Positions 2,266 through 19,238 of a stretch of 64,000 bases of DNA are shown one piece after another; the first letter of the stretch is position 1; each line of letters begins with the position of its first letter. A model generated the notes under the pieces. The model had not been told where the DNA came from. It saw only the letters and a list, made by a program, of their open reading frames with translations, and searched no databases. A program made the position numbers and the translations under genes. Source of the DNA: Acinetobacter wuhouensis (lineage in GTDB: Bacteria; Pseudomonadota; Gammaproteobacteria; Pseudomonadales; Moraxellaceae); assembly GCF_001696605.3 (NCBI RefSeq), contig NZ_CP031716.1:2046001-2110000 (forward strand), given 5' to 3'.

Positions 2266-2504
2266 GCCGCTACTCCTTGCGTTCTAAGCAACTTTGCTTG
2301 TTTGAAATACAGATAGTCAGATACATTGTTAAAAGCCGTTTCTACACGAAGCAGCGCATCACTACGCACACGCTCAAAACCTAGCGGAACTTCTTGCTCA
2401 AGAGCAATGTTTAATTCATCGTTAATGCCTTTCCAACGCGTTTTAATTCCTGCACCACGATCCACTTTTAAATCACAACCAAAACGGAATTGCTCAAAAC
2501 TCAT
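2262..2504 (-). CDS. hypothetical phage protein
   Basis: An 80-aa protein whose ATG overlaps the preceding gene by 11 bp and whose stop overlaps the HNH gene start by 4 bp. It contains VDRGAGIKTRWKGIN and a helical C-terminus, and no recognised domain. Membership of the overlapping early operon is the main evidence that it is real. Confidence 0.55.
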   Translation of the reverse strand: MSFEQFRFGCDLKVDRGAGIKTRWKGINDELNIALEQEVPLGFERVRSDALLRVETAFNNVSDYLYFKQAKLLRTQGVAA

Positions 2505-3895: not shown

Positions 3896-4871
3896 GCTGC
3901 ACCTCAATCACATCAATGATGTTGTTTGGCTGCTGCTGATTTCGTTTTGCGTAGTAATCAGCCCATGCTTGTTCACGTTGTTGCTTTGGTTTGGCTTGAT
4001 TGGTTTGCTTTGGCTCAAATAAGCCTTGGTAGTTTCCAGTGATTGAAGTTTTCAAAGACTCATTGCTGCCATCAAATCCCCATTTCTGGAAATCTTTGTA
4101 AATCGCATTTAGGGCATTTTTAGTCAGCTTGGTTTTAGTGGTCGTTGATCGATTAGAAACAAACTGCTCCCAAAGTGAGAAATCACAGATTGGTGAGAAT
4201 CTTTCTGAGGTCAGTTTAATTACTTCGTCATAAGATAATTTGCGAGCCTTGTCTTTGCGTTCAGCTTCGGCTTTTGCTTTTTGTTGTTTTACAAAGATTG
4301 AATAACCGTAAAAATTGGCTTCCAAAGGTTTTTTAGAGCGAAGCGACTTAATTAATAATTCTATAGAAGTAATTCTATAAATTAATTCTATTGTGTCTTT
4401 AGTTATGGAAGTGCTGGCGCTTTCATATTGGAAGTGCTGGCGCTTCACTTTTGGAAGTGCTTCACTTTTGGAAGTGGTACTTTCATTTTGGAAGTGCTCA
4501 ACCAATGAGACCTCATTGATCTGGTACTCATTACCCTTGCGACTGTTCTCGCTAACCAATGTAATAACACCTAAATCAAGCAGCTCTTTGAGACCTCTTC
4601 TAACTGTGCCTGTACCCATTTTTTTAGAGCCTTCGAGCTTTCCACCCTGCAACTGTGAATAGCTCACATGGTCGGTTATCTTGTCCTTAAAGCCGTTAAT
4701 ACGATCCTCAAGTTCTGCATAGACATTTTTTGCTGCATCACTTAAAAAAGGTCGCACCTCATATCGGTATAACCGACTAGACATGACATAGCCCTTTTCA
4801 AACTTGTCAGCCATTTTTTTACCTTTGTTGAATTGGACAATGTTGTCCTCATGTTTTGGAAGTGCTGTCAT
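3888..4871 (-). CDS. phage replication initiator, O-like
   Basis: The protein has about 327 aa from ATG 4871, which overlaps the antirepressor stop as ATGA and has a good purine-rich ribosome site. Residues ~25-130 look like a winged helix: an LSDAAKNVYAELEDR helix, then GTGTVRRGLKELLDLGVITLV typical of a recognition helix and wing. A variable linker (residues ~140-160) is encoded by the repeat block at 4406-4498. The C-terminal half is basic. Lambda O has the same plan: winged-helix DNA binding, an origin inside its own gene, and P next door. Confidence 0.65.
   Translation of the reverse strand: MTALPKHEDNIVQFNKGKKMADKFEKGYVMSSRLYRYEVRPFLSDAAKNVYAELEDRINGFKDKITDHVSYSQLQGGKLEGSKKMGTGTVRRGLKELLDLGVITLVSENSRKGNEYQINEVSLVEHFQNESTTSKSEALPKVKRQHFQYESASTSITKDTIELIYRITSIELLIKSLRSKKPLEANFYGYSIFVKQQKAKAEAERKDKARKLSYDEVIKLTSERFSPICDFSLWEQFVSNRSTTTKTKLTKNALNAIYKDFQKWGFDGSNESLKTSITGNYQGLFEPKQTNQAKPKQQREQAWADYYAKRNQQQPNNIIDVIEVQHD
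4406..4498. repeat. iteron-like repeats, candidate phage origin
   Basis: Five copies of TTGGAAGTGCT or a one- to two-base variant occur with GGAAGTG starting at 4407, 4430, 4453, 4470 and 4490 (spacings 23, 23, 17, 20). A sixth copy lies near 4856-4865 at the beginning of the gene. The array is inside the O-like gene and is flanked to its left by a very AT-rich stretch (about 4335-4395), as in the lambda origin. It is too short and too irregular for a CRISPR array. Confidence 0.6.
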
Positions 4872-5608
4872 GCCGCCACTCCCTTCTCTAACCACTTCGC
4901 AATGCGAGTAATTAATTTTTGAGTAAGTTTTACCTGGGTAAATACCTTTTCACCTGATTCAGTTAATCGAGGCGCAGAAGTCACAACATGCACGAGCTTC
5001 TGATCTATAGACTTTTGATAAGCTTGAATTTTTGAATATTGATCACGGTAAACAACCTTGTGGTCAATCAAGTATTGAGCAAGTTGGTTTTGACCAATCT
5101 TGAGAACTTTTGCAGATTCACGGATACCTAATACATTGGTGCAATCAGCAATGCGGTCTAAGCCTTTTGCTTTTGGTTCAAGCGACTGAACTTTGTGCTC
5201 AAGCTCGATTACTTTTTCTGTATAACCAAGTAAGGCTTGGCGAAGGAATGCAGGGTCATCAAGATTTAAAGCAGGCTTTTTAAGTGCATCTTCCATTGCA
5301 GTCATGCGGTCAAATACCTGGGCTTGCAACTCGTAGCTGTATGACATTGCCATCAAGCAAGCTTCGCGTTTTGGGAAGCGGTAGCAAGGGCGTTGCTCAC
5401 CATTTCCAGCAAGATAAGACGAGCGAAATTTTTCGCTGGTCTCTATCCCTAAAACCTTTGGTACTTTTGCCATAAAATCAGCATGGCGAAGCTGAACTGG
5501 CTTTTCGTCAAACTTGCGGCTATCGTTGATATAATCAACAAGCTCAAGCGATACCATGGTCACTTGGTCTGTGTTATTATCATTTTGAATTTGTGCTAAC
5601 ATATTCAC
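4868..5608 (-). CDS. phage antirepressor, Rha/KilAC type
   Basis: The protein has 246 aa. The N-terminal part (VSLELVDYINDSR ... LRHADFMAKVPKVLG ... CYRFPKREACLMAMSYS) matches the Rha-type regulatory domain, and the C-terminal part (RIADCTNVLGIRESAKVLKI ... VKLTQKLITRIAKWL) matches the KilA-C/ANT antirepressor domain with its helix-turn-helix. Such proteins interfere with repressors in temperate phages. GTG at 5608 overlaps the previous stop and is better spaced from the GAGGG ribosome site than the ATG two codons later. It is the third gene of the leftward early operon. Confidence 0.75.
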   Translation of the reverse strand: MNMLAQIQNDNNTDQVTMVSLELVDYINDSRKFDEKPVQLRHADFMAKVPKVLGIETSEKFRSSYLAGNGEQRPCYRFPKREACLMAMSYSYELQAQVFDRMTAMEDALKKPALNLDDPAFLRQALLGYTEKVIELEHKVQSLEPKAKGLDRIADCTNVLGIRESAKVLKIGQNQLAQYLIDHKVVYRDQYSKIQAYQKSIDQKLVHVVTSAPRLTESGEKVFTQVKLTQKLITRIAKWLEKGVAA

Positions 5609-5931
5609 TGTTCATTTCCCTCTAGGTTTTGAATATCAAGCTCAGTAGTTACCGCTACTGGGCTTTCTTTATTTGTGGACGATGTATTCACCGTATTTGT
5701 GGTACTACCAAACGCTCTACTGAGATACTCATGTTGTTTCTTGAACTTCAGGAGCTTCTCAATGGCTGCATCCCGAATCCATTCCGAGCGTTTTATGTCG
5801 TCCATTGCTGCCAGTGCATCAATCGCCTGCAATGCTTCATGTGTCATGCGGACTGATGTTGAGTCAGTCTTTTTCCCATGCACATCAAGAAAACCTAAAT
5901 CTAGTGCTTCTTGCATATCGTCTACCCCCAT
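5605..5931 (-). CDS. ribbon-helix-helix-like phage regulator
   Basis: The protein has 108 aa. The central part, STSVRMTHEALQAIDALAAM then KRSEWIRDAAIEKLL, has the strand-helix-helix pattern of ribbon-helix-helix DNA-binding proteins. A Ser/Thr/Asn-rich tail follows. It is second in the leftward operon after the Cro-like gene, a place often held by CII or other accessory regulators. Its target cannot be read from the sequence. Confidence 0.55.
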   Translation of the reverse strand: MGVDDMQEALDLGFLDVHGKKTDSTSVRMTHEALQAIDALAAMDDIKRSEWIRDAAIEKLLKFKKQHEYLSRAFGSTTNTVNTSSTNKESPVAVTTELDIQNLEGNEQ

Positions 5932-5939
5932 TTGCCCAC

Positions 5940-6125
5940 CTATGCGCTTAGCTTTCCAAGTTTGGCTTTTAACTTCCCTTTGGTTGATATTTCAAAAACC
6001 GCCTGTGTGCTTAACGGGATGCCTTTGCGCCAATAATTAATCACAGATCGATCTCGACCAAGGATTCGAGCGAGATCAGCGTCACTTTTGGCTTTATAGA
6101 AAGTTCGCAAGTCATCTACGGTCAT
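5940..6125 (-). CDS. Cro-like repressor
   Basis: The protein has 61 aa. Helix-turn-helix pattern: KSDADLARILGRDRSVINYWRK (residues ~12-34), in which SDADLARILGRDRSVINYW aligns with Cro/YdaS-type HTH segments. It is the first leftward gene, facing the CI-like repressor across a 103-bp operator region, which is the classical Cro position. A Cro-like protein would shut down repressor synthesis once lytic growth starts. Confidence 0.7.
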   Translation of the reverse strand: MTVDDLRTFYKAKSDADLARILGRDRSVINYWRKGIPLSTQAVFEISTKGKLKAKLGKLSA

Positions 6126-6135
6126 GTTTATTTAC

Positions 6136-6210
6136 CTAAACTACGATGTTTAGTTTATTGAACAATAAGTTTAGGAATATGTCAATTTTTTTGTTTAGTA
6201 TTTTAAACAA
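6136..6210. promoter_or_regulatory. divergent control region with operator palindromes and leftward promoter
   Basis: Between the Cro-like and CI-like starts lie CTAAAC-tacgat-GTTTAG (6136-6153) and TTGTTTA-gtattt-TAAACAA (6191-6210), two palindromes sharing the GTTTA/TAAAC half-site. TTATTG-aa-CAATAA (6155-6168) lies between them. On the minus strand TTGACA (6180-6185) is a consensus -35 box; the -10 box 17 bp further (TTCAAT) is poor. Repressor binding at these palindromes would cover both start regions. Confidence 0.6.
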
Positions 6211-6228
6211 ATGTAAGGTTTTACTATT

Positions 6229-6918
6229 ATGCAAACGACATCAGATAGAATTAACCAGCGTATGAGGGACTTGGGTCTGCAACACAAGGATTTGGTTGCT
6301 GCCACTGGAGCGAGCAAAGGGACTGTTACCAACTGGATTAATGGGGTAAATAACCCAACTGGAAAGAGATTGGTTCAACTCGCTCAGGCGTTAAAAACTA
6401 CCTCTAGTTGGTTATTAACTGGAAATTCAACCCCTGAATTTACACAAGTCGAACCTTGGGATAGCAACACGCCTCTTGATGATGACGAGATTGAAATTCC
6501 ATTCTTTAAGGATTTCTCTTTTGCTTGTGGTGGTGGCTCTATTGGCGAGGCTATTGCTAATGAAACACGCAAATTGCGAATGTCTAAAGCAACGCTGCGA
6601 AACTTATCCATCATGAAAGAGAATGCCGTGGCAGCGACTGCAATCGGCGATTCAATGAGTCCAACTATTAAAGATGGCGATACAATCCATGTTGATCTTG
6701 GAAGAAAAAATATAAAAGATGGAAAAATTTTCGCTATTTGTATTGGTGGGCTTTTCTACTGCAAACGACTCTACAACTTGCCTTTGGGTGGGGTTCGTAT
6801 CGTTTCTGACAACTCTGTAGAATTTCCAGAAATACAGTTAAGCGCCCAAGAAATAATTGATCAGCAATTAGAAGTTATCGGCTGGGTTTGGCAAATATCT
6901 AGCTTAGAAAGTTGGTAA
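6229..6918 (+). CDS. CI-like prophage repressor (HTH plus S24 autopeptidase)
   Basis: The protein has 229 aa. Residues ~6-62 are an XRE helix-turn-helix (HKDLVAATGASKGTVTNWIN). The C-terminal half is a LexA/CI S24 domain with the nucleophile in GDSMSPTIKDGD and a downstream KDGKIFAI carrying the likely catalytic Lys. FACGGG near residue 100 offers the Cys-Gly cleavage site. Such repressors hold the lytic genes off and self-cleave when RecA is activated. Its own gene is divergent from the Cro-like gene and is followed by a terminator. Confidence 0.88.
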   Translation: MQTTSDRINQRMRDLGLQHKDLVAATGASKGTVTNWINGVNNPTGKRLVQLAQALKTTSSWLLTGNSTPEFTQVEPWDSNTPLDDDEIEIPFFKDFSFACGGGSIGEAIANETRKLRMSKATLRNLSIMKENAVAATAIGDSMSPTIKDGDTIHVDLGRKNIKDGKIFAICIGGLFYCKRLYNLPLGGVRIVSDNSVEFPEIQLSAQEIIDQQLEVIGWVWQISSLESW

Positions 6919-6935
6919 TCACTCACAAAATACAG

Positions 6936-6958
6936 CCTGACTATATGTCAGGTTTTTT
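6936..6958 (+). terminator. terminator of the CI-like gene
   Basis: CCTGAC-tatat-GTCAGG is followed by six T, 18 bp after the repressor stop codon. It separates repressor transcription from the next plus-strand operon. Confidence 0.75.
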
Positions 6959-7007
6959 ATTGTCTAAAAATTGGTGTTCATAAAAATAATAAAAAAAGTT
7001 CATTTTA

Positions 7008-7049
7008 CTAAACAAAAGCATTGACTCATTTTGTTTAGTTTACTAAACT
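7008..7049 (+). promoter_or_regulatory. early rightward promoter overlapped by an operator
   Basis: TTGACT (7021-7026) and TAAACT (7044-7049) are spaced by 17 bp. The palindrome GTTTAG-ttta-CTAAAC (7033-7048) covers the spacer and -10 box, and another half-site CTAAAC lies at 7008-7013. The same half-site occurs in the CI/Cro intergenic region, so the CI-like protein is the likely repressor of this operon. Confidence 0.65.
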
Positions 7050-7064
7050 AAACCTCGTAAACAC

Positions 7065-7100
7065 AAAAAAGCCCAGCTACTTTCGACAGACACTGGGCTT
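7065..7100 (-). terminator. hairpin in the early leader, terminator-like on minus
   Basis: AAGCCCAG (7069-7076) pairs with CTGGGCTT (7093-7100). On the minus strand the stem is followed by a run of U, the form of an intrinsic terminator. It could block stray leftward transcripts entering the operator region. On the plus strand it would be a 5' leader hairpin 18 bp before the first gene. Confidence 0.45.
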
Positions 7101-7118
7101 CAACACAACGAGGTCATT

Positions 7119-7463
7119 ATGACAACTAAATCCAATTTTCTCAAGTCTGCATTCATTGCAGCATCAATCAGCGCGGGGATAGCAGTAGCTTACGCTTTCC
7201 AGCCTGCCAAAGTGGCTGATGATAATCCTCAAGTGGTTATCACTGCTCAAAAATATGAAGTGCTTAAACGTACTTGCCATGAAACCTGTGTCGCTACTGT
7301 CAAAGCTAATGATTACAGCATTTATGTTGAGTATGCCTTGGACGATGCTTCAGTCGAGTTTCTGGACATTCTGAACGTGGTGCATTCCGATGAGACTGTG
7401 AATGCTTATATCGACCAGTATGAAATTCAAAAGATTAATGCTGCGATTGCTGGAGCTAAATAA
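7119..7463 (+). CDS. hypothetical phage protein with N-terminal hydrophobic segment
   Basis: The protein has 114 aa. Residues ~8-27 (FLKSAFIAASISAGIAVAYAF) look like a membrane anchor or signal sequence with a possible AYA cleavage point. Two cysteines (RTCHETCVAT) lie in the mature part. It is the first gene of the plus early operon behind the operator-controlled promoter. No family recognised. Confidence 0.6.
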   Translation: MTTKSNFLKSAFIAASISAGIAVAYAFQPAKVADDNPQVVITAQKYEVLKRTCHETCVATVKANDYSIYVEYALDDASVEFLDILNVVHSDETVNAYIDQYEIQKINAAIAGAK

Positions 7464-7837
7464 TGAACACTCAAACCAAACCTGAGTTGTTCGCGCCCTG
7501 CTTTCCTTTTGCTATTGATAAGAAATCAATTGAAGTTGAACACGATGTTGTGACGTTTAGTTTCACGTTTGGAATGTATTCAATTGATTGTGAAATCAAA
7601 GGTGAACAGCTCACTGATATGGCTTATTTAGAGCCTCAGTCAAACCCGCAAAACGGCTATGAAGTTGAATATACAAAATTCGAAGTTGATAGCAGAACAC
7701 TTGCTGTTGTAACTCGCTCTGACTTTGAAGAAACAAAAATGAGTGTTGAGTTCATACTGACTGAATCTCAGGTTTATGAGTTGAATGAATGGCTTGAAGC
7801 GGATGCGGTTGAAAAATTTGAAATGGCACAAGGATAA
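7463..7837 (+). CDS. hypothetical phage protein
   Basis: A 124-aa acidic protein whose ATG shares a base with the previous stop (TAATG). It is rich in beta-type sequence (VVTFSFTFGMYSIDCEI) and ends in an acidic helix. No motif recognised. It is translationally coupled in the plus early operon. Confidence 0.55.
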   Translation: MNTQTKPELFAPCFPFAIDKKSIEVEHDVVTFSFTFGMYSIDCEIKGEQLTDMAYLEPQSNPQNGYEVEYTKFEVDSRTLAVVTRSDFEETKMSVEFILTESQVYELNEWLEADAVEKFEMAQG

Positions 7838-7841
7838 GAAT

Positions 7842-8909
7842 ATGAATGCAAAATTTGAATTAGAAATCGCGGATCAAAACATTGTTGTATCTGCATTTCG
7901 CACACCAGGCGGCACTGCTGAATTGTTCGAGCGCATTGCTCAAGAAGCGCGTTCACATGTGCCTGATGTGACCACTAAAAAAGGACGAGATCAGATTGGC
8001 TCGCTCGCTCTAAAAATTAGTAAATCCAAGACATTTATTGAGAAGTGTGGCAAGGAATTGGTTGCTGAGCAAAAGGCTCAAATCAAGCTTATTGATGATG
8101 ACCGCATTGCGACTGTTAAAAAGTTTGATGAACTTCGGAATGAAATCTTGGCGCCTCGCGATGCTTGGGAGCAAGCTGAAAAGGATCGCGTGGCGAAGCA
8201 TAAAGAAGCTGTTCAATTTATTAAAGATCACGCACCTGAAGCTGATGCTACTTCGTTAAAGTTAAAAGGCGATATTGAGTTTTTGGAAAACCTTGAGATT
8301 GGTTCGCAGTATGAGGAATTCGAAGAACAAGCCAAGCTTGCCAAATTTGAAACACTGGAAGCACTGCGCAAAGCATTAGCCGACCGTGAAAAGCTTGAAG
8401 CCGAACAAGCGGAACTTGAACGCTTACGACAAGCTGAAATTGATCGTCAACAGAAAGAGCGTGAAGAAGCTATTGCTCGTGAGGCTACTGAAAAAGCTCA
8501 ACGTGAAGCAGAAGCAAAAGCACGTTTTGAAGCTGAGCGTGTGGAGCGTGAAAAGCTTGAAGCAGAACAGCGCGAATCTCAATTAAAGATTGAAAAAGAA
8601 CAGGCTGAATTACGTGAGCAACAATTGAAGCAACAAGCTATTGAGCGTGAAAAGCAAGCTGAAATTGATCGTCAAAAAGCTGTTGAAGCTGAGCGTTTGC
8701 GTATTGAGCGTGAAGCGGAAGCAAAAGCAGAAGCTGAGCGAAAAGCCGAAGAAGCGCGTAAAGCTAATATTGAACACATGCGCTCAATCAATTGTGAAGC
8801 AGTAAAAGCTCTTTGCTTTGAGATTCCAAGTCTTACAGAAGAAATGGCGAAAGATGTGATTCGTGCGATTGCGAAAAACTCTGTGCCTAACGTGTCTATT
8901 AAATATTAA
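7842..8909 (+). CDS. coiled-coil phage protein
   Basis: The protein has 355 aa from ATG 7842, which has AAGGATAAG upstream. The longer frame starting at 7785 would run through the previous gene. Residues ~1-130 form a compact helical part (TTKKGRDQIGSLALKISKSK). Residues ~180-310 are a long Glu/Arg/Ala/Lys coiled coil with TolA-like composition. A small globular C-terminus follows (ITRAI-type helices: EEMAKDVIRAIAKN). Proteins of this build sit just before recT in many Acinetobacter prophages. The function is not known; an accessory role to recombination is only inferred from position. Confidence 0.6.
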   Translation: MNAKFELEIADQNIVVSAFRTPGGTAELFERIAQEARSHVPDVTTKKGRDQIGSLALKISKSKTFIEKCGKELVAEQKAQIKLIDDDRIATVKKFDELRNEILAPRDAWEQAEKDRVAKHKEAVQFIKDHAPEADATSLKLKGDIEFLENLEIGSQYEEFEEQAKLAKFETLEALRKALADREKLEAEQAELERLRQAEIDRQQKEREEAIAREATEKAQREAEAKARFEAERVEREKLEAEQRESQLKIEKEQAELREQQLKQQAIEREKQAEIDRQKAVEAERLRIEREAEAKAEAERKAEEARKANIEHMRSINCEAVKALCFEIPSLTEEMAKDVIRAIAKNSVPNVSIKY

Positions 8910-8942
8910 AAAATTGGCGGTCTAACCGCCTTGGAGATGAAT

Positions 8943-9752
8943 ATGAATGCTGTAGCTCAAGTGGAAAATCAATTGGGTGTATCGCTTAAAGATTACGATG
9001 TTGATCAAGCTATGTGGTCTGCCCTGACTTCATCAATCTTTCCTGGCGCGAAACCTGAATCAATCGTTATGGCGGTTGAATATGCGAAAGCGCGTAATCT
9101 CGACATCATGAAAAAGCCTTGCCACATCGTCCCAATGAATGTGAAGGATTCTAAAACAGGAAACACCGAATGGCGTGACATTATCATGCCATCCATTGCA
9201 GAACATCGAATTACAGCTTCTCGCTCTAACAGTTATGCAGGAATTGAGGCTCCAGTATTTGGTCCAATGATTGATATTAATTTTGGTGGCGTTTCTCACA
9301 CTGTTCCTGAATTCTGTACCGTAACTGTTTATCGAATGATTCATGGTGAAAAGGTTGCTTTTGCTCACACTGAATATTTTGAAGAAGCATGCGCAACTGT
9401 AAAAGGTGGTGGCTTAAATTCAATGTGGACAAAGCGTAAGCGTGGTCAGTTATCAAAATGTGCTGAAGCAGGCGCTCTCCGTAAAGCATTTCCTGAAGAA
9501 ATTGGTGATGAGTACACCAAAGAGGAAATGGAGGGAAAAATTATCACTGTAGGCAATGATGTTTCTGATGAAAATAAGATTGCAACAGATTCTCGCCCTA
9601 CCCTAAACGACGCACAAATTGAAAAAGCCATTACTAAAATCAAAGCAGGTCAAGGTGATTTAGAGTCACTAAAGGCTCATTACAACATCACTAGTGAACA
9701 AGAGCATTATGTTCGCGCTCAAACCGAGGTGCTTGATCATGATTCAGTTTAG
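8943..9752 (+). CDS. RecT/Bet-family single-strand annealing protein
   Basis: The protein has about 269 aa from ATG 8943, six bases after GGAG. Family features: VMAVEYAKARNLDIMKKPCHIVPM (residues ~40-63), a central beta region, and MWTKRKRGQLSKCAEAGALRKAFPEE (~160-185), the conserved Bet/RecT stretch. These proteins anneal complementary single strands made by a phage exonuclease. The exonuclease candidate follows with a 14-bp overlap, so the two form a recombination module. The C-terminal ~70 residues are variable linker plus a helical tail. Confidence 0.8.
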   Translation: MNAVAQVENQLGVSLKDYDVDQAMWSALTSSIFPGAKPESIVMAVEYAKARNLDIMKKPCHIVPMNVKDSKTGNTEWRDIIMPSIAEHRITASRSNSYAGIEAPVFGPMIDINFGGVSHTVPEFCTVTVYRMIHGEKVAFAHTEYFEEACATVKGGGLNSMWTKRKRGQLSKCAEAGALRKAFPEEIGDEYTKEEMEGKIITVGNDVSDENKIATDSRPTLNDAQIEKAITKIKAGQGDLESLKAHYNITSEQEHYVRAQTEVLDHDSV

Positions 9753-10377
9753 AGCCTCAGGTGTGGGTAAGCTTATGTCTTACCCTGAAAAAGACACTTT
9801 GTCTGAGGGTGCGCTCTCCCATATTTATGAAATGGAAAAGCAAATAATGTTGGGGTGGAAACCTAATCTTAATACGCTTGAAATTGAAAAAGGTCGTGCT
9901 GTAGAAGATCAAACAATTGCTTTATACAACCAAGTTTCAGGCAACTTTTATGTCAAGAATAAGGTTCGTAAAACTTCTGATCTATTCACTGGTGAGTGCG
10001 ATATTTGCGAGGATGAAGAAGATTTAATTTTAGATGTTAAGTCGTCTTACTCAAAAGACACCTTTCCCTTAACTATAAAAGAAGGTCAAAAAAAGCTGTA
10101 TGAATGGCAATTAGACACATACATGCACCTTTGGGATAAGGGGAATTCAGGCTTGGTTTTTGGATTGGTAGACACTCCAAGTCATCTAATTAAAAAACAT
10201 GAACCAGAAGATTGGCACATTGTTGGGCATATCACCCCTGAGCTTCGAATCACAACATTATTCCGTAAGCGAGATGCAAAGCGTGAAAAGCAATTGATAA
10301 ATAAAACTCGTGTTGCTCAAGACATGCTTTGTGAATTGCTTGATAAACGGGGGTTTAAGTGGGAGCAAGCAGCATAA
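9739..10377 (+). CDS. YqaJ-like phage exonuclease (PD-(D/E)xK)
   Basis: The protein has 212 aa from ATG 9739, which overlaps the recT-like gene by 14 bp. GECDICEDEEDLILDVKSS (residues ~90-108) gives the D-x(n)-DxK core of a PD-(D/E)xK nuclease, and YEWQLDTYMHLW supplies the downstream Gln/Tyr motif seen in lambda exonuclease and YqaJ proteins. It would degrade one strand of DNA ends and hand single strands to the annealing protein. The N-terminal FRASGVGKLM is the usual start of this family. Confidence 0.75.
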   Translation: MIQFRASGVGKLMSYPEKDTLSEGALSHIYEMEKQIMLGWKPNLNTLEIEKGRAVEDQTIALYNQVSGNFYVKNKVRKTSDLFTGECDICEDEEDLILDVKSSYSKDTFPLTIKEGQKKLYEWQLDTYMHLWDKGNSGLVFGLVDTPSHLIKKHEPEDWHIVGHITPELRITTLFRKRDAKREKQLINKTRVAQDMLCELLDKRGFKWEQAA

Positions 10378-10437
10378 TCCTATTCCAATAAAAGAATAGG
10401 CTCAAATTTAACGGTAATTATTTATTTTAATAGAATT

Positions 10438-10797
10438 ATGGTGGTTGTGATGGAAATTAATCAATTAAAACCTGCTGAAATTATTCGCGATGAGATGGGA
10501 ACTTGGTCACACCCTACTTACCTTGCTTACTTAGATAAATATCATTCGGATGACGAAGTCATCTCATCAGAAGCATGGGGAGCAATGCTGGATCATTTCA
10601 ATATTGAGACAGTTATCTTTTATTTAGAAAGCTCTGTGTCTTCTGATGATTGGGAAATCATGATGGACAATTGCGATATTACAAAATGGGATCCGATTGC
10701 ACCAAATGGATTTTTCTTAATTGATATTAACTTTAGTGAAGATGATGCATACGCGCTTTTCGCACGTGAAATTCGTAAAAAAAGTGAGGTTGCGTGA
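10438..10797 (+). CDS. hypothetical phage protein
   Basis: A 115- to 119-aa acidic protein; ATG 10438 and ATG 10450 are both possible starts. It is dominated by helices and ends EIRKKSEVA. The stop TGA overlaps the next ATG (TGATG). No domain recognised. Confidence 0.5.
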   Translation: MVVVMEINQLKPAEIIRDEMGTWSHPTYLAYLDKYHSDDEVISSEAWGAMLDHFNIETVIFYLESSVSSDDWEIMMDNCDITKWDPIAPNGFFLIDINFSEDDAYALFAREIRKKSEVA

Positions 10798-11351
10798 TGG
10801 ATATTAAAGGAATGCCAACATTGGCAGAGAAACAATCATTTTGGGCTGAGCAATTACCAAATTTCGAAGCAAAATATTGGTTGACAGACCGTGCTGAAGT
10901 CCTTGTTTTTGATATGGAGCAAGGTAACTATGTTGTAAAAGATGGTCTTGATCCGATTTATAAAGATGATGCAAATGACACTTTTCACCGTGTGAATACT
11001 GGTTGGGCGATGTGGTTAAAAGCTATTAGTTTTTCTAAAGCCCAAGCCATCCCGGAAGGTTTTGTTTTGGTGCCTAAAAACGAACTAACAACAACATATT
11101 ATTGGGATGGCGCTGAGTATGTAGTGAGCTGTGTTTCTGAATATGAAATGGATTTAGAAAAAGGTGAAATTGCAGAATTAGAAAAGTGGGAGCAAACCAA
11201 ATCAACTAAAGCATTTTTTGCAAACATATATTCGGATGAAGATAACTTCGAAATTGTGGAATTTGATTCAATTGAGGCTGCTGAATTAGCTGTTAGAGAA
11301 AACAAAGCAATGATCGAAGCACAGGAGCAAAGTCATGACAATTCAAACTGA
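10797..11351 (+). CDS. hypothetical phage protein
   Basis: A 184-aa acidic protein. The start ATG 10797 overlaps the previous stop. Contains GWAMWLKAISFSKAQ followed by EGFVLVPKNEL, a phrase found in many small phage and plasmid proteins of unknown function. The 3' end overlaps the next gene by 17 bp. Function unknown. Confidence 0.55.
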   Translation: MDIKGMPTLAEKQSFWAEQLPNFEAKYWLTDRAEVLVFDMEQGNYVVKDGLDPIYKDDANDTFHRVNTGWAMWLKAISFSKAQAIPEGFVLVPKNELTTTYYWDGAEYVVSCVSEYEMDLEKGEIAELEKWEQTKSTKAFFANIYSDEDNFEIVEFDSIEAAELAVRENKAMIEAQEQSHDNSN

Positions 11352-11610
11352 GGAAATCGAACTTAAACAAACCTGTGGTGAATCACCTGAACAATACGAT
11401 GCTTTTTATAAGGGCAAACAGGTTGGTTATCTCCGCTTAAGACATGGCGAGTTTAGAGTTGATTATCCTGATTGTGGTGATGAGACAATTTTCTATTCAG
11501 AAGAAATGCAAGGCGATGGAAAATTTAAAGATGATGAGCGTGATGAATTTCTTTTAAAAGCCAAGCAAGCGATTGTGAAAAGATTGAAAGAAGAAAAGGA
11601 GGAAGGTTGA
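11335..11610 (+). CDS. hypothetical phage protein
   Basis: A 91-aa protein with GKQVGYLRLRHGEFRVDYPDCGDETIF and a basic helical C-terminus (AKQAIVKRLKEEKEE). It overlaps its upstream neighbour and its TGA overlaps the next start. No family recognised. Confidence 0.5.
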   Translation: MTIQTEEIELKQTCGESPEQYDAFYKGKQVGYLRLRHGEFRVDYPDCGDETIFYSEEMQGDGKFKDDERDEFLLKAKQAIVKRLKEEKEEG

Positions 11611-11885
11611 TGGGAGTTATCAAAGAGCGTGACGATGATCTACTTCAGGCTATTTTTGATGAGATGCAATATCTTAAGCGAGTGTTACTCACTAAAAATG
11701 AACGTCGAATTGGTCGTGCTGAGTTTGCAAAATTATTAAATATTGAGCCTGAAACGCTGGATGCACGAATTAGAGAAGGTCGCTACACTAAGCCATATAA
11801 AGATGGTAGGAAAAGCTATTGGTTAAACTCCTATGTTCAATCTGTAATACTTGATGTAGACTCAAATTATAAAGCCACCTCATAG
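11610..11885 (+). CDS. small HTH protein, excisionase/AlpA-like
   Basis: A 91-aa protein. RIGRAEFAKLLNIEPETLDARIREGRYTKPYKDGRKSYW in outline is a MerR/Xis-like winged helix: a short HTH followed by a hydrophobic wing ending in SYW. It is the last gene of the plus arm and directly next to the chromosome, the usual place of an excisionase near an attachment site. No integrase accompanies it. An early-operon regulator is the alternative. Confidence 0.5.
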   Translation: MGVIKERDDDLLQAIFDEMQYLKRVLLTKNERRIGRAEFAKLLNIEPETLDARIREGRYTKPYKDGRKSYWLNSYVQSVILDVDSNYKATS

Positions 11886-12442: not shown

Positions 12443-12544
12443 GATAGATAGCAAAATGATTAACTCTAGAATGGATAAAATTATAGGACGATTCGCACAA
12501 ATTTAAAAATAACTTTGCTTATTTTTAATCCTGAAAATTAAATC

Positions 12545-12574
12545 TTGTCAAACAAACAATTATTTGCTTAAAAT
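12545..12574 (+). promoter_or_regulatory. putative promoter of the ynb-like lipid operon
   Basis: TTGTCA (12545-12550) and TAAAAT (12569-12574) with an 18-bp spacer lie 30 bp before the first gene of the operon. No other strong promoter is evident in the gap. Confidence 0.4.
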
Positions 12575-12603
12575 CCATTCAAATAGCTAATTTTAATAGA
12601 ACA

Positions 12604-13248
12604 ATGCCATCCATTTACCAGTTAAAACCTGCATTTCAAAACTTATTACGCCCCTTTGTGCAAAAGCTATTTAATGCAGGAGTCACAGCGAATCAAATCA
12701 CCCTTTTGGCGATGTTCATTTCTATTGCAATCGCCATTTTTATTTATGTCTATTTTCTTGATATTGCACCGAATGTATGGCTATTGATCTTTCCTGTATG
12801 GATGCTGGTTCGGATGGCATTTAACGCGATTGATGGCATGCTCGCGCGTGAGTTCAAACAACAATCCAATTTAGGCGCATTTTACAATGAATTGTGTGAT
12901 GTGATTTCCGACACAGCACTCTATATCTGTTTAGCCGTGTTTAGCTTTATCAGTACACCGCTCTTACTCTTGATTGCTTTTTTAGCGATTTTAAGTGAAT
13001 ACACAGGTGTAATGGCACCACTGATTGGTCAAGAACGTCGCTACGATGGACCAATGGGAAAAAGTGACCGCGCATTTTGGTTAAGTTTAATCACTGTAAT
13101 TATCGTGATATTTCCTATATTCAGTACAAATCTGCAACTGCTCGGTTGGATTTGTAACGGCATACTCTGCCTTATCGGATTATTACTTATTTTGACAATT
13201 TATAACCGCATTAAAAACAGTTTGAAATCGACCACTTCGTCAGTTTAA
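12604..13248 (+). CDS. CDP-alcohol phosphatidyltransferase, YnbA-like
   Basis: A 214-aa membrane protein with about five to six hydrophobic segments. The CDP-alcohol signature appears as DGMLAREFKQQSNLG followed by AFYNELCDVISD (residues ~78-104). The family consensus is DG-x2-AR-x8-G-x3-D-x3-D; here the first Asp after the Gly is Asn and a D-x3-D pair follows one turn later. The enzyme joins a CDP-activated lipid to an alcohol. It is first in an operon that also encodes a CDP-diacylglycerol synthase, so its lipid donor is probably made locally. The alcohol acceptor is unknown. Confidence 0.8.
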   Translation: MPSIYQLKPAFQNLLRPFVQKLFNAGVTANQITLLAMFISIAIAIFIYVYFLDIAPNVWLLIFPVWMLVRMAFNAIDGMLAREFKQQSNLGAFYNELCDVISDTALYICLAVFSFISTPLLLLIAFLAILSEYTGVMAPLIGQERRYDGPMGKSDRAFWLSLITVIIVIFPIFSTNLQLLGWICNGILCLIGLLLILTIYNRIKNSLKSTTSSV

Positions 13249-13274
13249 TTCTTAAAAATTTAGGGTATTTAACA

Positions 13275-15023
13275 ATGTATAACAACAGTCACCACACATT
13301 CACCACGCATGATAATACTGAGATTTTTTATCAACATTGGAAAACAGCGTCTGTTTCTGAGTCTAAAAAAGCCATCATTTTATTCCATCGTGGTCATGAA
13401 CATTCTGATCGTATGGCACATTTGGTCAATGAGCTGAATTTACCAGAATTCGACTTTTTTGCATGGGATGCACGTGGTCACGGTAATACTGCTGGCGAAC
13501 GTGGTGATGCGCCGAGTTTTTCAGCATGTGTCAAAGACATTCAATACTTCGTACAACATATTGAACAAAATTATGGCATTGAAGCTCAAAATATTGCTGT
13601 GGTTGCTCAAAGTGTTGGTGCGGTTCTAGCAGCCACTTGGGTGCATGATTATGCTCCTAAAATCCGTGCATTGTGCCTCGCCTCGCCTGCTTTTGACATT
13701 AAACTTTATGTGCCTTTTGCTGAACCAAGTTTAAGAGTTATGGAAAAAATTCGTGGCAATTTCTTCATTCAAAGTTATGTCAAAGCCAAAATGCTGACTC
13801 ATGATGAAGAACGTGCAACAAGCTATGATACAGATCCAAAAATTGCCAAAGCGATTTCTGTGCGTATGTTGCTTGGTTTATATGATGCCTCTAAACGTAT
13901 TGTGGCAGACTCGCAAAATATCTTTGTACCGACTCAAGTGCTGTGTTCTGGTTCAGACTTTGTGGTTTTCCAAAAACCACAACGAGAGTTCTATCAAAAA
14001 CTTCCACATCCTAAAAAAGAGTTTCATGTCTTAGATGGTTTCTTCCATGACACTTTAGGCGAAAAAGATCGCTATATTGCCACTGAAAAAATCCGTCGTT
14101 TTATCCAACAATGTTTTGCTGTGGAATATCAAGCACCCGATGTTTTAAATGCCGATAAAATTGGTGTCAGTTGTGCCATTGCAGAAGATCTCAGTTCACC
14201 ATTACCGAATAAATCAATTAAAAATATCTTTTGGGAAATGACTAAAAAGAATTTGAAAATTGGTAGTCATTTATCTACAGGCTTAAAAATTGGTGAAGAT
14301 ACAGGCTATGACTCAGGCAGTACCTTAGACTTTGTTTATCGCAATCAAACAGAAAGTGGCAATCCGATTGGTAAAATCATTGACCGTCAATATTTGAATG
14401 CGATTGGTTGGCGCGGTATTCGAGTTCGTAAACAGAACATTGAACATCTATTGCAAAAATACGCTGAGATCCTTGTTAAAAAGCGTAAGCCTTTAAGAAT
14501 TATGGATATTGCTTCTGGTCATGGTCGTTATATTTTAGATGCTGTTGCGCAATTACCAAAACACCCTGATTCTATTTTACTAAGAGATTATAGTGAGATC
14601 AATGTGCAAGCGGGTCAGCAAATGATTGCAGATCGTGGTTTAGCTGAGATTGCTGAATTTATCAAAGCAGATGCATTTGATACGCAATCTTTGGCTTCGG
14701 TAAAACCAAAACCATCACTGGCTGTCGTTTCAGGTTTATATGAATTATTTAGTGATAATGATTTGCTTCGTCAATCATTAGAGGGTTTAAGTAAGGCAAT
14801 TTTGAAAGATGGCTATCTGATCTATACCGGTCAAATTTGGCATCCACAACAAGAGTTTATTGCTCGTGCGCTTACCTCACACCGTGAAGGTGATGCTTGG
14901 GTCATGCGTTTACGCTCTCAAGCTGAAATGGATGCTTTGGTTGAGGCCGCAGGCTTTAAAAAAGTTGATCAATGTATCGATGAATTTGGAATATTTACTG
15001 TTTCTGTTGCGCAAAAGCTGTAA
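13275..15023 (+). CDS. alpha/beta hydrolase-methyltransferase fusion, YnbC-like
   Basis: The protein has 582 aa. Residues ~1-285 are a Hydrolase_4 (monoglyceride lipase/lysophospholipase-like) domain: FHRGHEHSD oxyanion region, WDARGHGNTAGERG, nucleophile elbow VVAQSVGA, and a late Asp/His pair (SGSDFVVF ... GFFHDTLGE). Residues ~370-582 are a class I SAM methyltransferase: IMDIASGHGRYILDA is motif I. E. coli YnbC has the same length and domain order. A plausible job is deacylating and methylating a lipid or its head group made by the neighbours. Substrates are not deducible. The methyltransferase lacks marks of a named subfamily. Confidence 0.8.
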   Translation: MYNNSHHTFTTHDNTEIFYQHWKTASVSESKKAIILFHRGHEHSDRMAHLVNELNLPEFDFFAWDARGHGNTAGERGDAPSFSACVKDIQYFVQHIEQNYGIEAQNIAVVAQSVGAVLAATWVHDYAPKIRALCLASPAFDIKLYVPFAEPSLRVMEKIRGNFFIQSYVKAKMLTHDEERATSYDTDPKIAKAISVRMLLGLYDASKRIVADSQNIFVPTQVLCSGSDFVVFQKPQREFYQKLPHPKKEFHVLDGFFHDTLGEKDRYIATEKIRRFIQQCFAVEYQAPDVLNADKIGVSCAIAEDLSSPLPNKSIKNIFWEMTKKNLKIGSHLSTGLKIGEDTGYDSGSTLDFVYRNQTESGNPIGKIIDRQYLNAIGWRGIRVRKQNIEHLLQKYAEILVKKRKPLRIMDIASGHGRYILDAVAQLPKHPDSILLRDYSEINVQAGQQMIADRGLAEIAEFIKADAFDTQSLASVKPKPSLAVVSGLYELFSDNDLLRQSLEGLSKAILKDGYLIYTGQIWHPQQEFIARALTSHREGDAWVMRLRSQAEMDALVEAAGFKKVDQCIDEFGIFTVSVAQKL

Positions 15024-15031
15024 AGTGACAT

Positions 15032-15067
15032 AAAGGTAGAGGTTTAAATGATTAACCATCTACCTTT
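15032..15067 (+). other. hairpin between ynbC-like and ynbD-like genes
   Basis: AAAGGTAGA (15032-15040) pairs with TCTACCTTT (15059-15067), with an inner GGTT/AACC extension. No T-run follows, so it is not a standard terminator. It may stabilise or process the operon mRNA, or partly attenuate it. Confidence 0.45.
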
Positions 15068-15117
15068 CTAAAATGATTCAACTTTTATAAATTAAAATAA
15101 TAAGTCATGGAATATGT

Positions 15118-16485
15118 ATGCAGACACTCGATAAAGAAAAAGGCACTTGGAAATGGGGAATTCTCTGCTTAGTATTCCTCGCGCCATTCTTCTTCCTGAC
15201 TTATGGTTTTGCCAACCATTATGCGTCAGGTTTGAGTCATGTACCCAGTATCGTATTTGACTGGGAAAAGCATATTCCGCTGTGGGCTTGGACGATTGTA
15301 CCTTATTGGTCAATTGACCTATTTTACGGGCTTTCATTATTAATCTGTTGGAATAAATTTGAACTTCGGCAACAAGCTTCACGCCTACTTCTCGCACAAA
15401 TTATTAGTATTACGTGCTTTCTCTTATTTCCTCTAAAATTCAGTTTTGACCGACCAGCTTTGGATGGATTCTTTGGCTTATGGTTCGATGTACTCATGGG
15501 CTTCGATAAACCCTTTAACCAAATGCCTTCTTTACACATTGTTCTTCTAGTCATTCTTTGGGATTTTTATCGCAGACATGTACAAGGTACTTGGAAATAC
15601 CTCGTTGATCTATGGTGTTTTTTAATCGGTATATCCGTACTGACCACATGGCAACACCATTTTATAGATGTTCCGACAGGTATTTTAGTTGGTGCGATCT
15701 GTCTATGGTTATTCCCTGTTTCAGCCAAATCACCATTCAAAAAAGATGGTGTCCAGTTCTTAACATCTAAGCATTTAAAACTGGGAAGTTACTATATGTG
15801 TGGTGTGGTCATTTTCGGGATTTTGGCTTATGAGTTCAAACCTTGGGGACTGTGGTTGATTTATCCTGCTGTAAGTTTATTTATCGTGGCGCATAGTTAT
15901 AGCCTTGTTCGTCCTCATTTTATGCAAAAACAAAGTGATGGCAATATGACCATTGCGGCAAAAATCCTTTTAGCGCCTTATCTTATATTTGCATGGTTGA
16001 ATAGTCGCATCTGGACGAGAAAGCATCCTGAAGATTCATTTATTATCGAAATTGAAAATAAACAGATTTATATCGGGCGTATTCCTAACTTAAACGATAC
16101 TCAACAATATCAAGCCATCTTTGACTGTGTTGCGGAACTGCCTTTAAAACATGATTCAGTAACGCATAAAAGTGAATATCAGCAATATCTCAGCTTGGAT
16201 TTAATTCCATTGCAAGCCAATCAGCTTCAATATGCTGTGGAATATTTCAATGTGCAATTGAACGAATTAAATCACACAGATTCTAAAATTTTAGTCTGTT
16301 GTGCTTTAGGCTATTCACGCAGTAGCGCTTTGCTTGCCGCATGGTTAATACAGCAAAAGCATGTTGAAAATGTCCAAGAAGCCGTTGAGTTGATACAAAA
16401 AGCACGTCCGTGGGTGGTATTAAAAGAGCCACAAATTGAGGAATTACAAATTTACCAACTCAAACTCAAAGGTTTAGCGCCATGA
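15118..16485 (+). CDS. PAP2 phosphatase-dual specificity phosphatase fusion, YnbD-like
   Basis: The protein has 455 aa. The N-terminal ~310 residues are a multi-pass membrane PAP2 domain with NQMPSLHIV (SxxH) and TTWQHHFIDVPTG (H-x3-D). The C-terminal ~150 residues are a cytosolic cysteine phosphatase with the loop VCCALGYSRSS (C-x5-R). E. coli YnbD has the same architecture. Both domains remove phosphate, so the protein could dephosphorylate a phosphatidyl-alcohol phosphate (as PgpP/PTPMT do) and a lipid phosphate. Its stop overlaps the next ATG by 4 bp. Confidence 0.8.
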   Translation: MQTLDKEKGTWKWGILCLVFLAPFFFLTYGFANHYASGLSHVPSIVFDWEKHIPLWAWTIVPYWSIDLFYGLSLLICWNKFELRQQASRLLLAQIISITCFLLFPLKFSFDRPALDGFFGLWFDVLMGFDKPFNQMPSLHIVLLVILWDFYRRHVQGTWKYLVDLWCFLIGISVLTTWQHHFIDVPTGILVGAICLWLFPVSAKSPFKKDGVQFLTSKHLKLGSYYMCGVVIFGILAYEFKPWGLWLIYPAVSLFIVAHSYSLVRPHFMQKQSDGNMTIAAKILLAPYLIFAWLNSRIWTRKHPEDSFIIEIENKQIYIGRIPNLNDTQQYQAIFDCVAELPLKHDSVTHKSEYQQYLSLDLIPLQANQLQYAVEYFNVQLNELNHTDSKILVCCALGYSRSSALLAAWLIQQKHVENVQEAVELIQKARPWVVLKEPQIEELQIYQLKLKGLAP

Positions 16486-16916
16486 AGATGAACTTCTTTG
16501 TGGTGGCTAAATTATTATCGTCTACCACAGCTTTATTATTTTCAGGCTATCTGGCTTTTGCGCTTTCAATAATTGCGATTTTACTTAAAGGTTGGCAATC
16601 CATTGAATTTTGGATATTCATTGTCATTACGTTGTTATTATCTTTTACACACCACTATATTTCCTTCCGTGTGAAATTCGATGCTCAACTCCTTGAAATG
16701 ATGGCACAAGAATCAAAAATCGAAAGCATTGAAAACTTAACCCAACAATTTGACCAAAGCTTAGTATCAATGAAACTCATGCCCGAATCTAAAGCAGGAC
16801 GTGATTGGTCAGTACGCTTCGCAGGTTGCTTTAAACTATTTAAAATACAAATTGCTTTGCTGTTACTGCAATATTTTGTTTTAATCATTTTAATCTATAG
16901 ATTACTTGCACAATAA
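16482..16916 (+). CDS. small membrane protein of the lipid operon
   Basis: The protein has 144 aa with hydrophobic segments at about residues 8-32, 38-56 and 120-142 and a soluble middle part. The ATGA overlap with the ynbD-like gene shows coupling. No family recognised. Its place in the operon points to a role in the same lipid pathway, perhaps as an assembly or scaffold factor. Confidence 0.65.
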   Translation: MKMNFFVVAKLLSSTTALLFSGYLAFALSIIAILLKGWQSIEFWIFIVITLLLSFTHHYISFRVKFDAQLLEMMAQESKIESIENLTQQFDQSLVSMKLMPESKAGRDWSVRFAGCFKLFKIQIALLLLQYFVLIILIYRLLAQ

Positions 16917-16943
16917 ATTGTTCAATATCAATTGGCTTCAATA

Positions 16944-17648
16944 ATGAATCAAATACCAGAACAGACTACACGATCATCAGTAAAAACGAGTGAAAATGTG
17001 AAAACCAATATCGCTTCTAGTTCGATTGCACGTTTTATCGCATTTTTAACACGTCGAGGTGCGCGCTTACTGACTGGTGCACGCAGTTTATGGATTGGTT
17101 GCCAACCTGACATGAAACAACGTATTTATTATGCCAATCACAATAGCCATATCGACTTTATTTTATTGTGGTCTTCATTACCTAAATTAATGCGTCGAAA
17201 AACCAAACCTGTTGCCGCTTCAGACTATTGGCTCAAAGATGGTTTTCGCCAATTCTTAATTAAAGATACTTTTAATGGTGTGACGATTCAGCGCAATCGT
17301 GAAAATAATGCCGATCCATTACAACCGATCAAAGAAGCGCTTGAACAAGGTTATTCGATTATTTTCTTTCCTGAAGGCACACGTAATCTGAATGACGATA
17401 TTGATTTATTGCCTTTTAAAAGTGGCTTATACAACCTACATAAGCAATTTCCAGAGATTGAAATTGTTCCTGTATGGATTTCCAATTTAAGACGTGTCAT
17501 GCCCAAAGGTGCTTTTATTCCTTTACCCTTACTTTCAACGGTTTGTTTTGGTTGCCCTTTAGAACAGCACTTAGAATTAGAAAAGACAGCCTTTATCGAC
17601 TATGCACAAAGTAAGTTATTAGAATTAAAAGAGGTTGAAAATCAATGA
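16944..17648 (+). CDS. 1-acyl-glycerol-3-phosphate acyltransferase-like (PlsC family)
   Basis: The protein has about 234 aa from ATG 16944; an upstream TTG is possible. Motif I is NHNSHIDF (H-x4-D), motif III is FFPEGTRN, with VTIQRNRE between them and IEIVPVWISN after. It transfers an acyl chain to a lysophosphatidic acid-like acceptor at the membrane. E. coli ynb has no acyltransferase, so this operon adds its own source of phosphatidic acid. The stop overlaps the cytidylyltransferase start by 4 bp. Confidence 0.85.
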   Translation: MNQIPEQTTRSSVKTSENVKTNIASSSIARFIAFLTRRGARLLTGARSLWIGCQPDMKQRIYYANHNSHIDFILLWSSLPKLMRRKTKPVAASDYWLKDGFRQFLIKDTFNGVTIQRNRENNADPLQPIKEALEQGYSIIFFPEGTRNLNDDIDLLPFKSGLYNLHKQFPEIEIVPVWISNLRRVMPKGAFIPLPLLSTVCFGCPLEQHLELEKTAFIDYAQSKLLELKEVENQ

Positions 17649-18589
17649 TTTTAGATAATCTCGATAAGACCTATCTTTTATTTGGTATTTTCGCAGGCAT
17701 TTTGATTTTTGCATCCAGTGTCGGTTTTATTCTCAAACAAAAAACTGGAGATCAACCATCATCTGTTATTGATAACCTCAATGCACGTATCAATGCATGG
17801 TGGGTCATGCTCATCGTGATTGGCGCAGCAATTGCACTGGGTAAAACTGCATTTATTGTATTGTTTGGGATTATTTCATTATTTGCTTTACGTGAATTTA
17901 TTAGTCTATTGCCAACACGGCGTGGTGACTATTTCCCTTTATTGATTAGCTTTTACTTTGTTATTCCCTATCAATATTTTTTAATTTATACAGATTGGTA
18001 CGGGCTTTATTCAATTTTTATTCCCTTATATGTATTTTTACTGATTCCAATTGCCAGTTTAAAACAAGAAGATACCAAACATTTTCTAGAAAGAAGCTCA
18101 AAAATCCAATGGGGTTTGATGGTCTGTGTGTTCTGTATTTCACATGTTCCTGCTTTGCTGAATTTGAAATTACCTGCTTTCAAAGGTGAACCGATTTGGT
18201 TGGCAATTTGGCTGATTATGGTCGTACAAGCATCCGATGTTTTGCAATATGTGTGTGGTAAGCTTTTTGGCAAGCATAAAGTTGCACCAGTATTGTCACC
18301 GTCCAAAACTGTTGAAGGACTCCTTGGCGGCATCATTTTAGCGACAGCGCTTGGTGTTGCAATGTCATGGCTCACTCCATTCACCTACTTACAAGCAACT
18401 GTCATTGGATTGATTGTTTGTATTTTTGGATTTTTTGGTGGTTTGGTGATGTCTGCAATCAAGCGTGACCGTGGTGTTAAAGATTGGGGACAACTCATTC
18501 ATGGACATGGCGGTATGTTAGATCGTATTGATTCTATTTGCTTTTCTGCACCGATCTTCTTCCATATCTTGAGATATTGGTGGAGTTAA
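17645..18589 (+). CDS. phosphatidate cytidylyltransferase, CdsA/YnbB-like
   Basis: A 314-aa protein with about eight membrane segments. The CdsA signature is complete at the C-terminus: SPSKTVEGLLGG, then SAIKRDRGVKDWGQLIHGHGGMLDRIDS. It makes CDP-diacylglycerol from CTP and phosphatidic acid. In this operon it links the PlsC-like enzyme to the CDP-alcohol transferase. The housekeeping cdsA is presumably elsewhere, since this gene sits with ynb-type partners and not with the frr/dxr/bamA group. Confidence 0.87.
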   Translation: MILDNLDKTYLLFGIFAGILIFASSVGFILKQKTGDQPSSVIDNLNARINAWWVMLIVIGAAIALGKTAFIVLFGIISLFALREFISLLPTRRGDYFPLLISFYFVIPYQYFLIYTDWYGLYSIFIPLYVFLLIPIASLKQEDTKHFLERSSKIQWGLMVCVFCISHVPALLNLKLPAFKGEPIWLAIWLIMVVQASDVLQYVCGKLFGKHKVAPVLSPSKTVEGLLGGIILATALGVAMSWLTPFTYLQATVIGLIVCIFGFFGGLVMSAIKRDRGVKDWGQLIHGHGGMLDRIDSICFSAPIFFHILRYWWS

Positions 18590-18647
18590 CACAAAGTTTA
18601 AATCGCAAATTTAAAGACAAAACTTAATGGATAAGGGGGTTAAAACA

Positions 18648-19238
18648 ATGTATATGAAAACAACAATTTCACTGTTTGGCATGATGATCGTATTGCAAGG
18701 TTGTAGTCTATTTGAAGGTTCCGGTTGTAATAACAAAAAAACCGTAGATGCTGTCAAAAAACTTTATGCTAAACAAGTAAATACAAAGCCATTTACATCT
18801 ATGGAACAGGTACAAAATCAGTTCGGTCCTGACGGCAAACAAACCAATCTTCAAACACAGTCCATTGTTGGAATTTCACTCGCAGATATCAAGCAGATTA
18901 ATACTTCAAAATCCGCTGGCAATACCAGTTCAGCCTCTGAACCTCAACAGAATGAACAAAGAGATTACCTAATTTCACAGTTTGAAGGTGCGGACTATAT
19001 TTGTGAAGGTGTGATTCAACAACACGTTGATCAAAATGCTTTAACTGAGATTCGTAAAGACTTACCTCAACAAGATTTACTCTCGATCAAAAACAATCAA
19101 CTGGCGATTCCTGTTTACTATGCTGTGTACGAAAAAAGTGGAAATAATCAATTTCAAGTCGTATATGCGCCTCAAAACCCAGCCCAATTGATGTTAGCCA
19201 TCATGCTAAAACAACATCAAGTCAGTTCTAATAAATAG
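18648..19238 (+). CDS. putative lipoprotein
   Basis: The protein has about 196 aa. ATG 18648 follows AAGGGGG at good spacing; an ATG two codons later is also possible. Lipobox VLQGC near residue 18 after a short hydrophobic helix predicts a lipid-anchored envelope protein. The mature part has a Ser/Thr/Gln-rich middle. Only 58 bp separate it from the lipid operon, so it may be co-transcribed. No family recognised. Confidence 0.65.
   Translation: MYMKTTISLFGMMIVLQGCSLFEGSGCNNKKTVDAVKKLYAKQVNTKPFTSMEQVQNQFGPDGKQTNLQTQSIVGISLADIKQINTSKSAGNTSSASEPQQNEQRDYLISQFEGADYICEGVIQQHVDQNALTEIRKDLPQQDLLSIKNNQLAIPVYYAVYEKSGNNQFQVVYAPQNPAQLMLAIMLKQHQVSSNK

Follow-up and report, generated by a model that had tools for sequence, protein, structure and literature searches.

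Which phospholipid would be made by a compact group of mostly lipid-related genes in a bacterium that is already equipped for phospholipid synthesis, and what would it do for its host? The question is raised by six open reading frames of the ORF list, all on the plus strand and spanning positions 12604-18589 of the window, i.e. the whole 64,000-nucleotide stretch of Acinetobacter wuhouensis DNA analyzed here. The genes, designated A to F in their order, are spaced by 26, 94, -4, 15 and -4 bp. Since separate CdsA, PgsA and PssA enzymes are encoded elsewhere in the genome, the cluster represents an extra route.

Gene A (12604-13248) encodes a CDP-alcohol phosphotransferase-like protein of the YnbA/Arc1A type, with asparagine at signature positions D1 and D3, that matches PF01066 (CDP-OH_P_transf) at 41.6 bits against a cut-off of 22. 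The product of B (13275-15023), which is of the YnbC type, fuses a monoacylglycerol-lipase-like hydrolase (residues 29-265; PF12146, Hydrolase_4, 224.3 bits) to a class I methyltransferase (residues 273-581; PF12147, Methyltransf_20, 484.5 bits). C (15118-16485), of the YnbD type, combines a PAP2-like membrane part (motifs at residues 105-188) with a dual-specificity cysteine phosphatase (about residues 304-452; DSPc, 49 bits, cut-off 33.5). D (16482-16916) encodes a small helical membrane protein that matches no known family and has zero Pfam matches. E (16932-17648) specifies a PlsC-like acyltransferase (PF01553, 67.9 bits) with a listed TTG start and a possible later one, and F (17645-18589) a CdsA-like cytidylyltransferase of the YnbB/Arc1F type (PF01148, CTP_transf_1, 237.9 bits) that is 37% identical over 142 residues to the housekeeping CdsA of the same genome. 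An earlier note had described six genes with these domains as an operon-like lipid gene set with YnbC and YnbD fusions, and the ORF list and Pfam bear this out; on the two fusion architectures, profiles recovered both halves of B and the DSPc half of C but placed PAP2_3 at 24.3 bits, under its cut-off of 27.

The gap 5' of A (12455-12603, plus strand) is shared with a divergent ybaK-like tRNA-editing gene (PF04073; 11975-12454, minus strand), which also lies 5' of the cluster in 18 of 41 loci of named strains. A prophage-like block (1546-11885), its ORFs named by eye from translations, ends beside the ybaK-like gene and includes one HNH-like ORF, several that look like replication genes, a repressor-like one at 6229 and two resembling recombination genes at 8931 and 9694. 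Directly 3' of F, the ORF at 18627-19238 looks lipoprotein-like by eye, has neither a Pfam nor an NCBIfam match, and shows 28-43% identity to its relatives in the four named-strain loci where these were found. A scan for promoter-like and terminator-like sites was uninformative, because the counts (26 and 1, respectively) are no higher than those expected by shuffling (26.2 and 5.4).

Gene PA2541 of Pseudomonas aeruginosa PAO1 is annotated as a CDP-alcohol phosphatidyltransferase. The genes PA2541-PA2536 were named arc1A-F in 2022 as an antagonism-resistance cluster, and the available passages of that study describe five of the six as predicted for phospholipid metabolism and four as similar to enzymes of phosphatidylglycerol (PG) synthesis (PMC8926400). 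The window cluster very probably corresponds to arc1A-F, judging by gene number, gene order and annotation rather than by sequence: both have six genes, five of them lipid-related, and the last arc1 gene, PA2536, is a probable phosphatidate cytidylyltransferase in the available text of PMC8190622, like F at the end of the order. The same passages of PMC8926400 report that arc1 is controlled by Gac/Rsm, is required when B. thailandensis attacks with its type VI system and has no role in survival of heat, peroxide, salt or detergent; the deletion phenotype was partly complemented, and the two strongest genes act in one pathway. P. aeruginosa that has lost PA2541 (arc1A) survives type VI attack less well. 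In the accessible sections of a 2025 paper (PMC12663445), arc1A mutants are more sensitive to A. baylyi armed with the lipase Tle1 alone and also to V. cholerae, the latter effect being smaller without active TseL. The combined mutant showed no increased sensitivity to Tae1 or Tse2; in those sections arc1A is auxiliary to arc3A and auxiliary against V. cholerae. The DUF2339 family, used to define Arc3A (PMC8926400, available passages), is also represented by a protein encoded in the window genome. In view of these two studies, the earlier proposal of an undescribed system is not supported. The accompanying claim of no known product still stands to this extent: no lipid product of the cluster was found in open-licence PMC papers, among the matches listed, although a phenotype has been published.

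We compared 69 loci, comprising 41 of named strains, 26 further Pseudomonadota, E. coli and the window; all were fetched through B, which is hence present by construction. The order A-B-C-D-E-F on a single strand occurs in 55 of them, with packing that is not always tight and with a split frame in one gene at L080, L087 and L103. Minority orders are A-B-C-D (four loci, one at a contig end), A-B-C-D with divergent E and F (two), A-F-E-B (two), B-C-D with divergent A (two), and A-F-B-C (E. coli), A-F-C-B, A-B and A-B-E-F (one each). Frames of B, C or A are split or interrupted in L019, L080, L087, L102 and L103, through sequencing error or decay. The full order was also found in eight of ten extra loci from the family of genome G114.

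Because the six-gene order prevails to this extent, it is the usual form, and ynbABCD of E. coli K-12 is a reduced one; the expanded ynb-like operon of the earlier note is not supported. The E. coli locus has relatives of A, F, B and C in the order A-F-B-C, with the same fusions and the same Asn/Asn motif in YnbA, but neither D nor E was found in the fetched locus. The four counterparts, correctly anticipated in the note, share 39.5% (A/YnbA), 51% (B/YnbC), 36% (C/YnbD) and 39% (F/YnbB) identity; the methyltransferase taken to be an addition is already part of YnbC. For ynbA, the matches listed from the open-licence PMC literature came to a single row in the table of a screen. A CDP-alcohol transferase is also part of a Pantoea cluster in the literature, which looked unrelated.

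Conservation of the cluster is patchy. Of 398 Pseudomonadota genomes, 27 contain PF12147; within the genus Acinetobacter it occurs in 27 of 99 genomes and within the family of G114 in 21 of 99, with two weak matches among these 21. Of Moraxellaceae outside the genus, the 398 genomes include three, none with a PF12147 match. Among named strains, B is most similar to its counterparts in A. guillouiae (92%) and in A. baumannii ACIN00150, A. piscicola and A. rongchengensis (91% each). A. baylyi DSM 14961 holds the full cluster (L092, 7337-13201), and A. baylyi ADP1 is the lipase attacker in the accessible sections of PMC12663445. One genome with a full cluster encodes, in addition, a more distantly related Methyltransf_20 protein (360.8 bits) at L195 (G537 C1:956000-974000), where no other cluster genes adjoin it. 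Among plasmid records, 56 match B, 29 of them over most of its length, some of these 29 being E. coli records of chromosome size. In the set on a 19-kb Burkholderia plasmid, E and F are divergent; the stretch fetched from an E. coli plasmid of the conjugative type shows F-E-B. A plasmid search for the P. aeruginosa copy returned 21 records, none from Pseudomonas by organism tally, and the search of named genomes likewise gave no Pseudomonas. Nor was an oxidoreductase like PA2535 recognized by eye 3' of F in the inspected loci.

Enzyme A has an unusual active site. CDP-alcohol phosphotransferases have eight absolutely conserved residues, D1xxD2G1xxAR...G2xxxD3xxxD4 (PMC4634129, available text); in known members, metal is bound by D1, D2 and D3, and D4 presumably acts as the base (PMC6506517, available text). 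In all 69 A proteins D1 and D3 are replaced by Asn, while D2, G1, A, G2 and D4 are kept and the Arg of 'AR' is retained in 65 and replaced by Lys in four, giving the motif N..DG..A[R/K]...G...N...D throughout. As A departs from the eight-residue signature at D1 and D3, while still matching the PF01066 profile, we term it CDP-alcohol phosphotransferase-like. The genome's own PgsA and PssA keep Asp at both positions. Given the part that D1 and D3 play in binding the catalytic metals of known members, A might not carry out the standard reaction.

The nearest profiles of A, in both NCBIfam and PDB, are archaetidylinositol- and phosphatidylinositol-phosphate (PIP) synthases, and 20 of 20 aligned relatives match NF040950 and NF045883. 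Arg202 of A, invariant in these 20 proteins, aligns by profile with the phosphate-binding Arg195 of the M. tuberculosis PIP synthase; the equally invariant Arg156 falls one position off the second phosphate-binding residue, Arg155, in a poorly aligned stretch. In PIP synthase the residue directly after D4 is Arg94, which is crucial there (PMC6506517, available text), whereas the 20 aligned A proteins have Val, Ile, Met or Cys and never Arg at this position. A phosphorylated acceptor is favored by the use of inositol phosphate in the nearest relatives of A, by the alignment of Arg202 with Arg195 and by the phosphatase later in the operon; one other than inositol phosphate would fit A best, if weakly.

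When the profile of A was run over the same 398 genomes as PF12147, it gave 37 strong matches (at least 169 bits), including ten genomes without B. A adjoins E and F in eight of these ten, the exceptions being L166, with a broken A and a partial F, and L172, with A alone. At D1 the A protein of L172 carries Ala, with Asn kept at D3, whereas the remaining nine are Asn/Asn. In the tree of A, the protein of L164 is closest to those of the full clusters L108-L110, and for this reason B-C-D was probably lost at L164. A second class comprises 11 weaker matches (60-73 bits; L174-L184), all 11 of them Asn/Asn but with the Arg of 'AR' replaced, and adjoins CdsA-like and PlsC-like genes (F and E) in 10 of 11 loci. 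This class forms one clade (support 1.0), from which the tree does not separate the first class as a clade of its own (support 0.37). A scan of 20 triad neighbors from 14 of 21 loci for a clue to the alcohol X revealed no shared partner. The occurrence of Asn/Asn, the A-E-F set without B and the second Asn/Asn class are new observations of this analysis. We regard it as possible, though doubtful, that the Asn/Asn proteins are a separate branch within the CDP-alcohol phosphotransferase fold in which the metal center is altered, each with its own CdsA-like and PlsC-like enzyme. On this view the phospholipid made by A-E-F would have a head group not yet described and would be turned into a lipase-resistant form by B, C and D, and the second class would suggest a chemistry older and wider than the arc1 cluster.

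Across relatives, B, C, E and F keep their catalytic residues, the exception being the third-motif arginine of the PAP2-like part of C. E has NH.S..D and FPEGTR in 60 of 60 sequences, and the F signature is mostly invariant in 62. A profile search places the hydrolase half of B nearest to monoacylglycerol lipases among solved structures (best E 1.1e-21); with two split frames left out, Ser113, Asp228 and His258 are kept in 67 of 67 proteins and the SAM-motif residues nearly so. D67, D91, R107 and R112 of D are, besides the start, invariant in 19 sequences, and its confident AlphaFold2 model (pLDDT 93.1) is helical, with no PDB fold match at E 0.001 or better.

The phosphatase half of C has the C-x5-R loop and the dual-specificity phosphatase (DSP) fold. 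Cys395 and Arg401 are found in 63 of 65 sequences, the other two having a gap, and in the AlphaFold2 model (mean pLDDT 88.7) residues about 299-455 match DSP structures. The search was run with the whole-protein model, and the DSP half filled the match lists, leaving the PAP2-like half without a fold assignment. PAP2 phosphatases carry the motifs PSGH and SR.....H...D. In the PAP2-like part of C, His140, His180 and Asp184 are present in 65 of 65 proteins, yet the first motif reads PSLH in 64 and PSMH in one, and the third-motif Arg is replaced by Val, Ile or Thr in all 65. Since this Arg is absent and YnbD failed as a PGP or C55-PP phosphatase in complementation of the respective mutants (PMC7413402, available text), the PAP2-like half may possibly be a transferase. 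If the usual PAP2 topology holds, its motifs and the cysteine phosphatase may lie on opposite membrane faces, a placement weakly supported by positively charged residues in the loops that follow helices six and eight.

We consider the cluster to be the Acinetobacter version of Arc1, an accessory phospholipid route that would help the cell withstand competitors and lipase attack above all, with a probability of roughly 45%. The product would be a special phosphatidyl-X from a dedicated route. E would acylate lysophosphatidic acid to phosphatidic acid, F would convert the latter to CDP-diacylglycerol, and A would join this to a phosphorylated small alcohol (X-P), yielding phosphatidyl-X-P. The cysteine-phosphatase half of C would strip the extra phosphate in the cytoplasm, and the PAP2-like half, at the periplasmic face, would act on a lipid phosphate or move the head group. 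B may trim an acyl chain and methylate the lipid or a precursor, methylation of the lipid being a conjecture, and D may serve as a small membrane partner. The housekeeping PG route (PlsC, CdsA, PgsA and PGP phosphatase) uses these reaction types in the same sequence but lacks a counterpart of B or D, and PgsA differs from A in its metal-site aspartates; PTPMT1 is also counted among the closest known systems. Plain PG is not supported as the product, given that YnbD does not replace PGP phosphatase.

In a rival scheme, lysolipids released by lipases would be removed by the B hydrolase or re-acylated by E, and F and A would channel the salvaged material back into common phospholipids, PG for example, with no new lipid. 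The lipase sensitivity of arc1A mutants, the resemblance of B to monoacylglycerol lipase and the four genes like PG-synthesis enzymes all agree with such clean-up. We nevertheless find it rather unlikely, as its PG end point meets the same YnbD result, the altered active site of A is unlike that of the genome's PgsA, A-E-F is found without B, and a methyltransferase would be superfluous for repair. It is improbable that F makes a sugar-diphosphate-diacylglycerol for a membrane glycolipid built by the cluster, as proposed for YnbB in MPIase synthesis: YnbB overproduction raised MPIase, whereas loss of ynbB alone did not change it significantly (PMC6362211), and Pfam finds no glycosyltransferase family among the six proteins. 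Phosphatidylinositol, made if A were a PIP synthase and the cysteine phosphatase removed the phosphate, is the least probable product and was set aside despite the profile kinship of A, as window A scores far under the cut-offs (78.8 against 180 bits for NF040950, 51 against 170 for NF045883), lacks the Arg after D4, and belongs to a genome with no match to inositol-phosphate synthase (PF01658), the last two points making inositol an unlikely head group.

Confidence in the accessory Arc1-type route is not higher because only one of the two phosphate-binding Arg residues aligns exactly and, in the available passages of the 2022 study, Arc1 is not specific to a single effector. There, no single-effector B. 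thailandensis mutant relieved the Arc1 defect, so that these passages do not support lipase specificity. Further results count against this reading: Arc1 loss also modestly raised B. thailandensis survival (PMC8926400, same passages), a cdsA defect was not complemented by YnbB (PMC6362211, data not shown there), and the failure of YnbD in phosphatase mutants, the auxiliary role of arc1A against V. cholerae, the Asn residues at D1 and D3 and the absence of a clue to X among triad neighbors point the same way.

Regulation may differ as well. The available text of PMC4066749 reports a single RsmA site at PA2541. In the window, whose genome encodes CsrA, no A-N-GGA site of the RsmA/CsrA type lies in the last 40 bases 5' of A. 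At most 25 bases from the A start, the motif occurs at 10 of 11 loci of family f21 (presumably Pseudomonadaceae), at 6 of 21 other loci and at none of 36 Acinetobacter loci (window included), counts that leave out L087 and in which the start is one codon early or uncertain in some rows. The difference between Acinetobacter and f21 is suggestive only, since the motif is similar to a ribosome-binding site and base composition varies among the genomes; the lack of the motif just 5' of A in Acinetobacter loci, as opposed to arc1 and f21, is likewise counted against the Arc1-type reading.

The arc1 cluster protects against rivals, and the Asn/Asn site together with the bare A-E-F triad narrows the question of its product to three enzymes. 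Should the head group prove new, bacterial membranes would gain a further lipid, and one form of resistance to phospholipase toxins would be explained.
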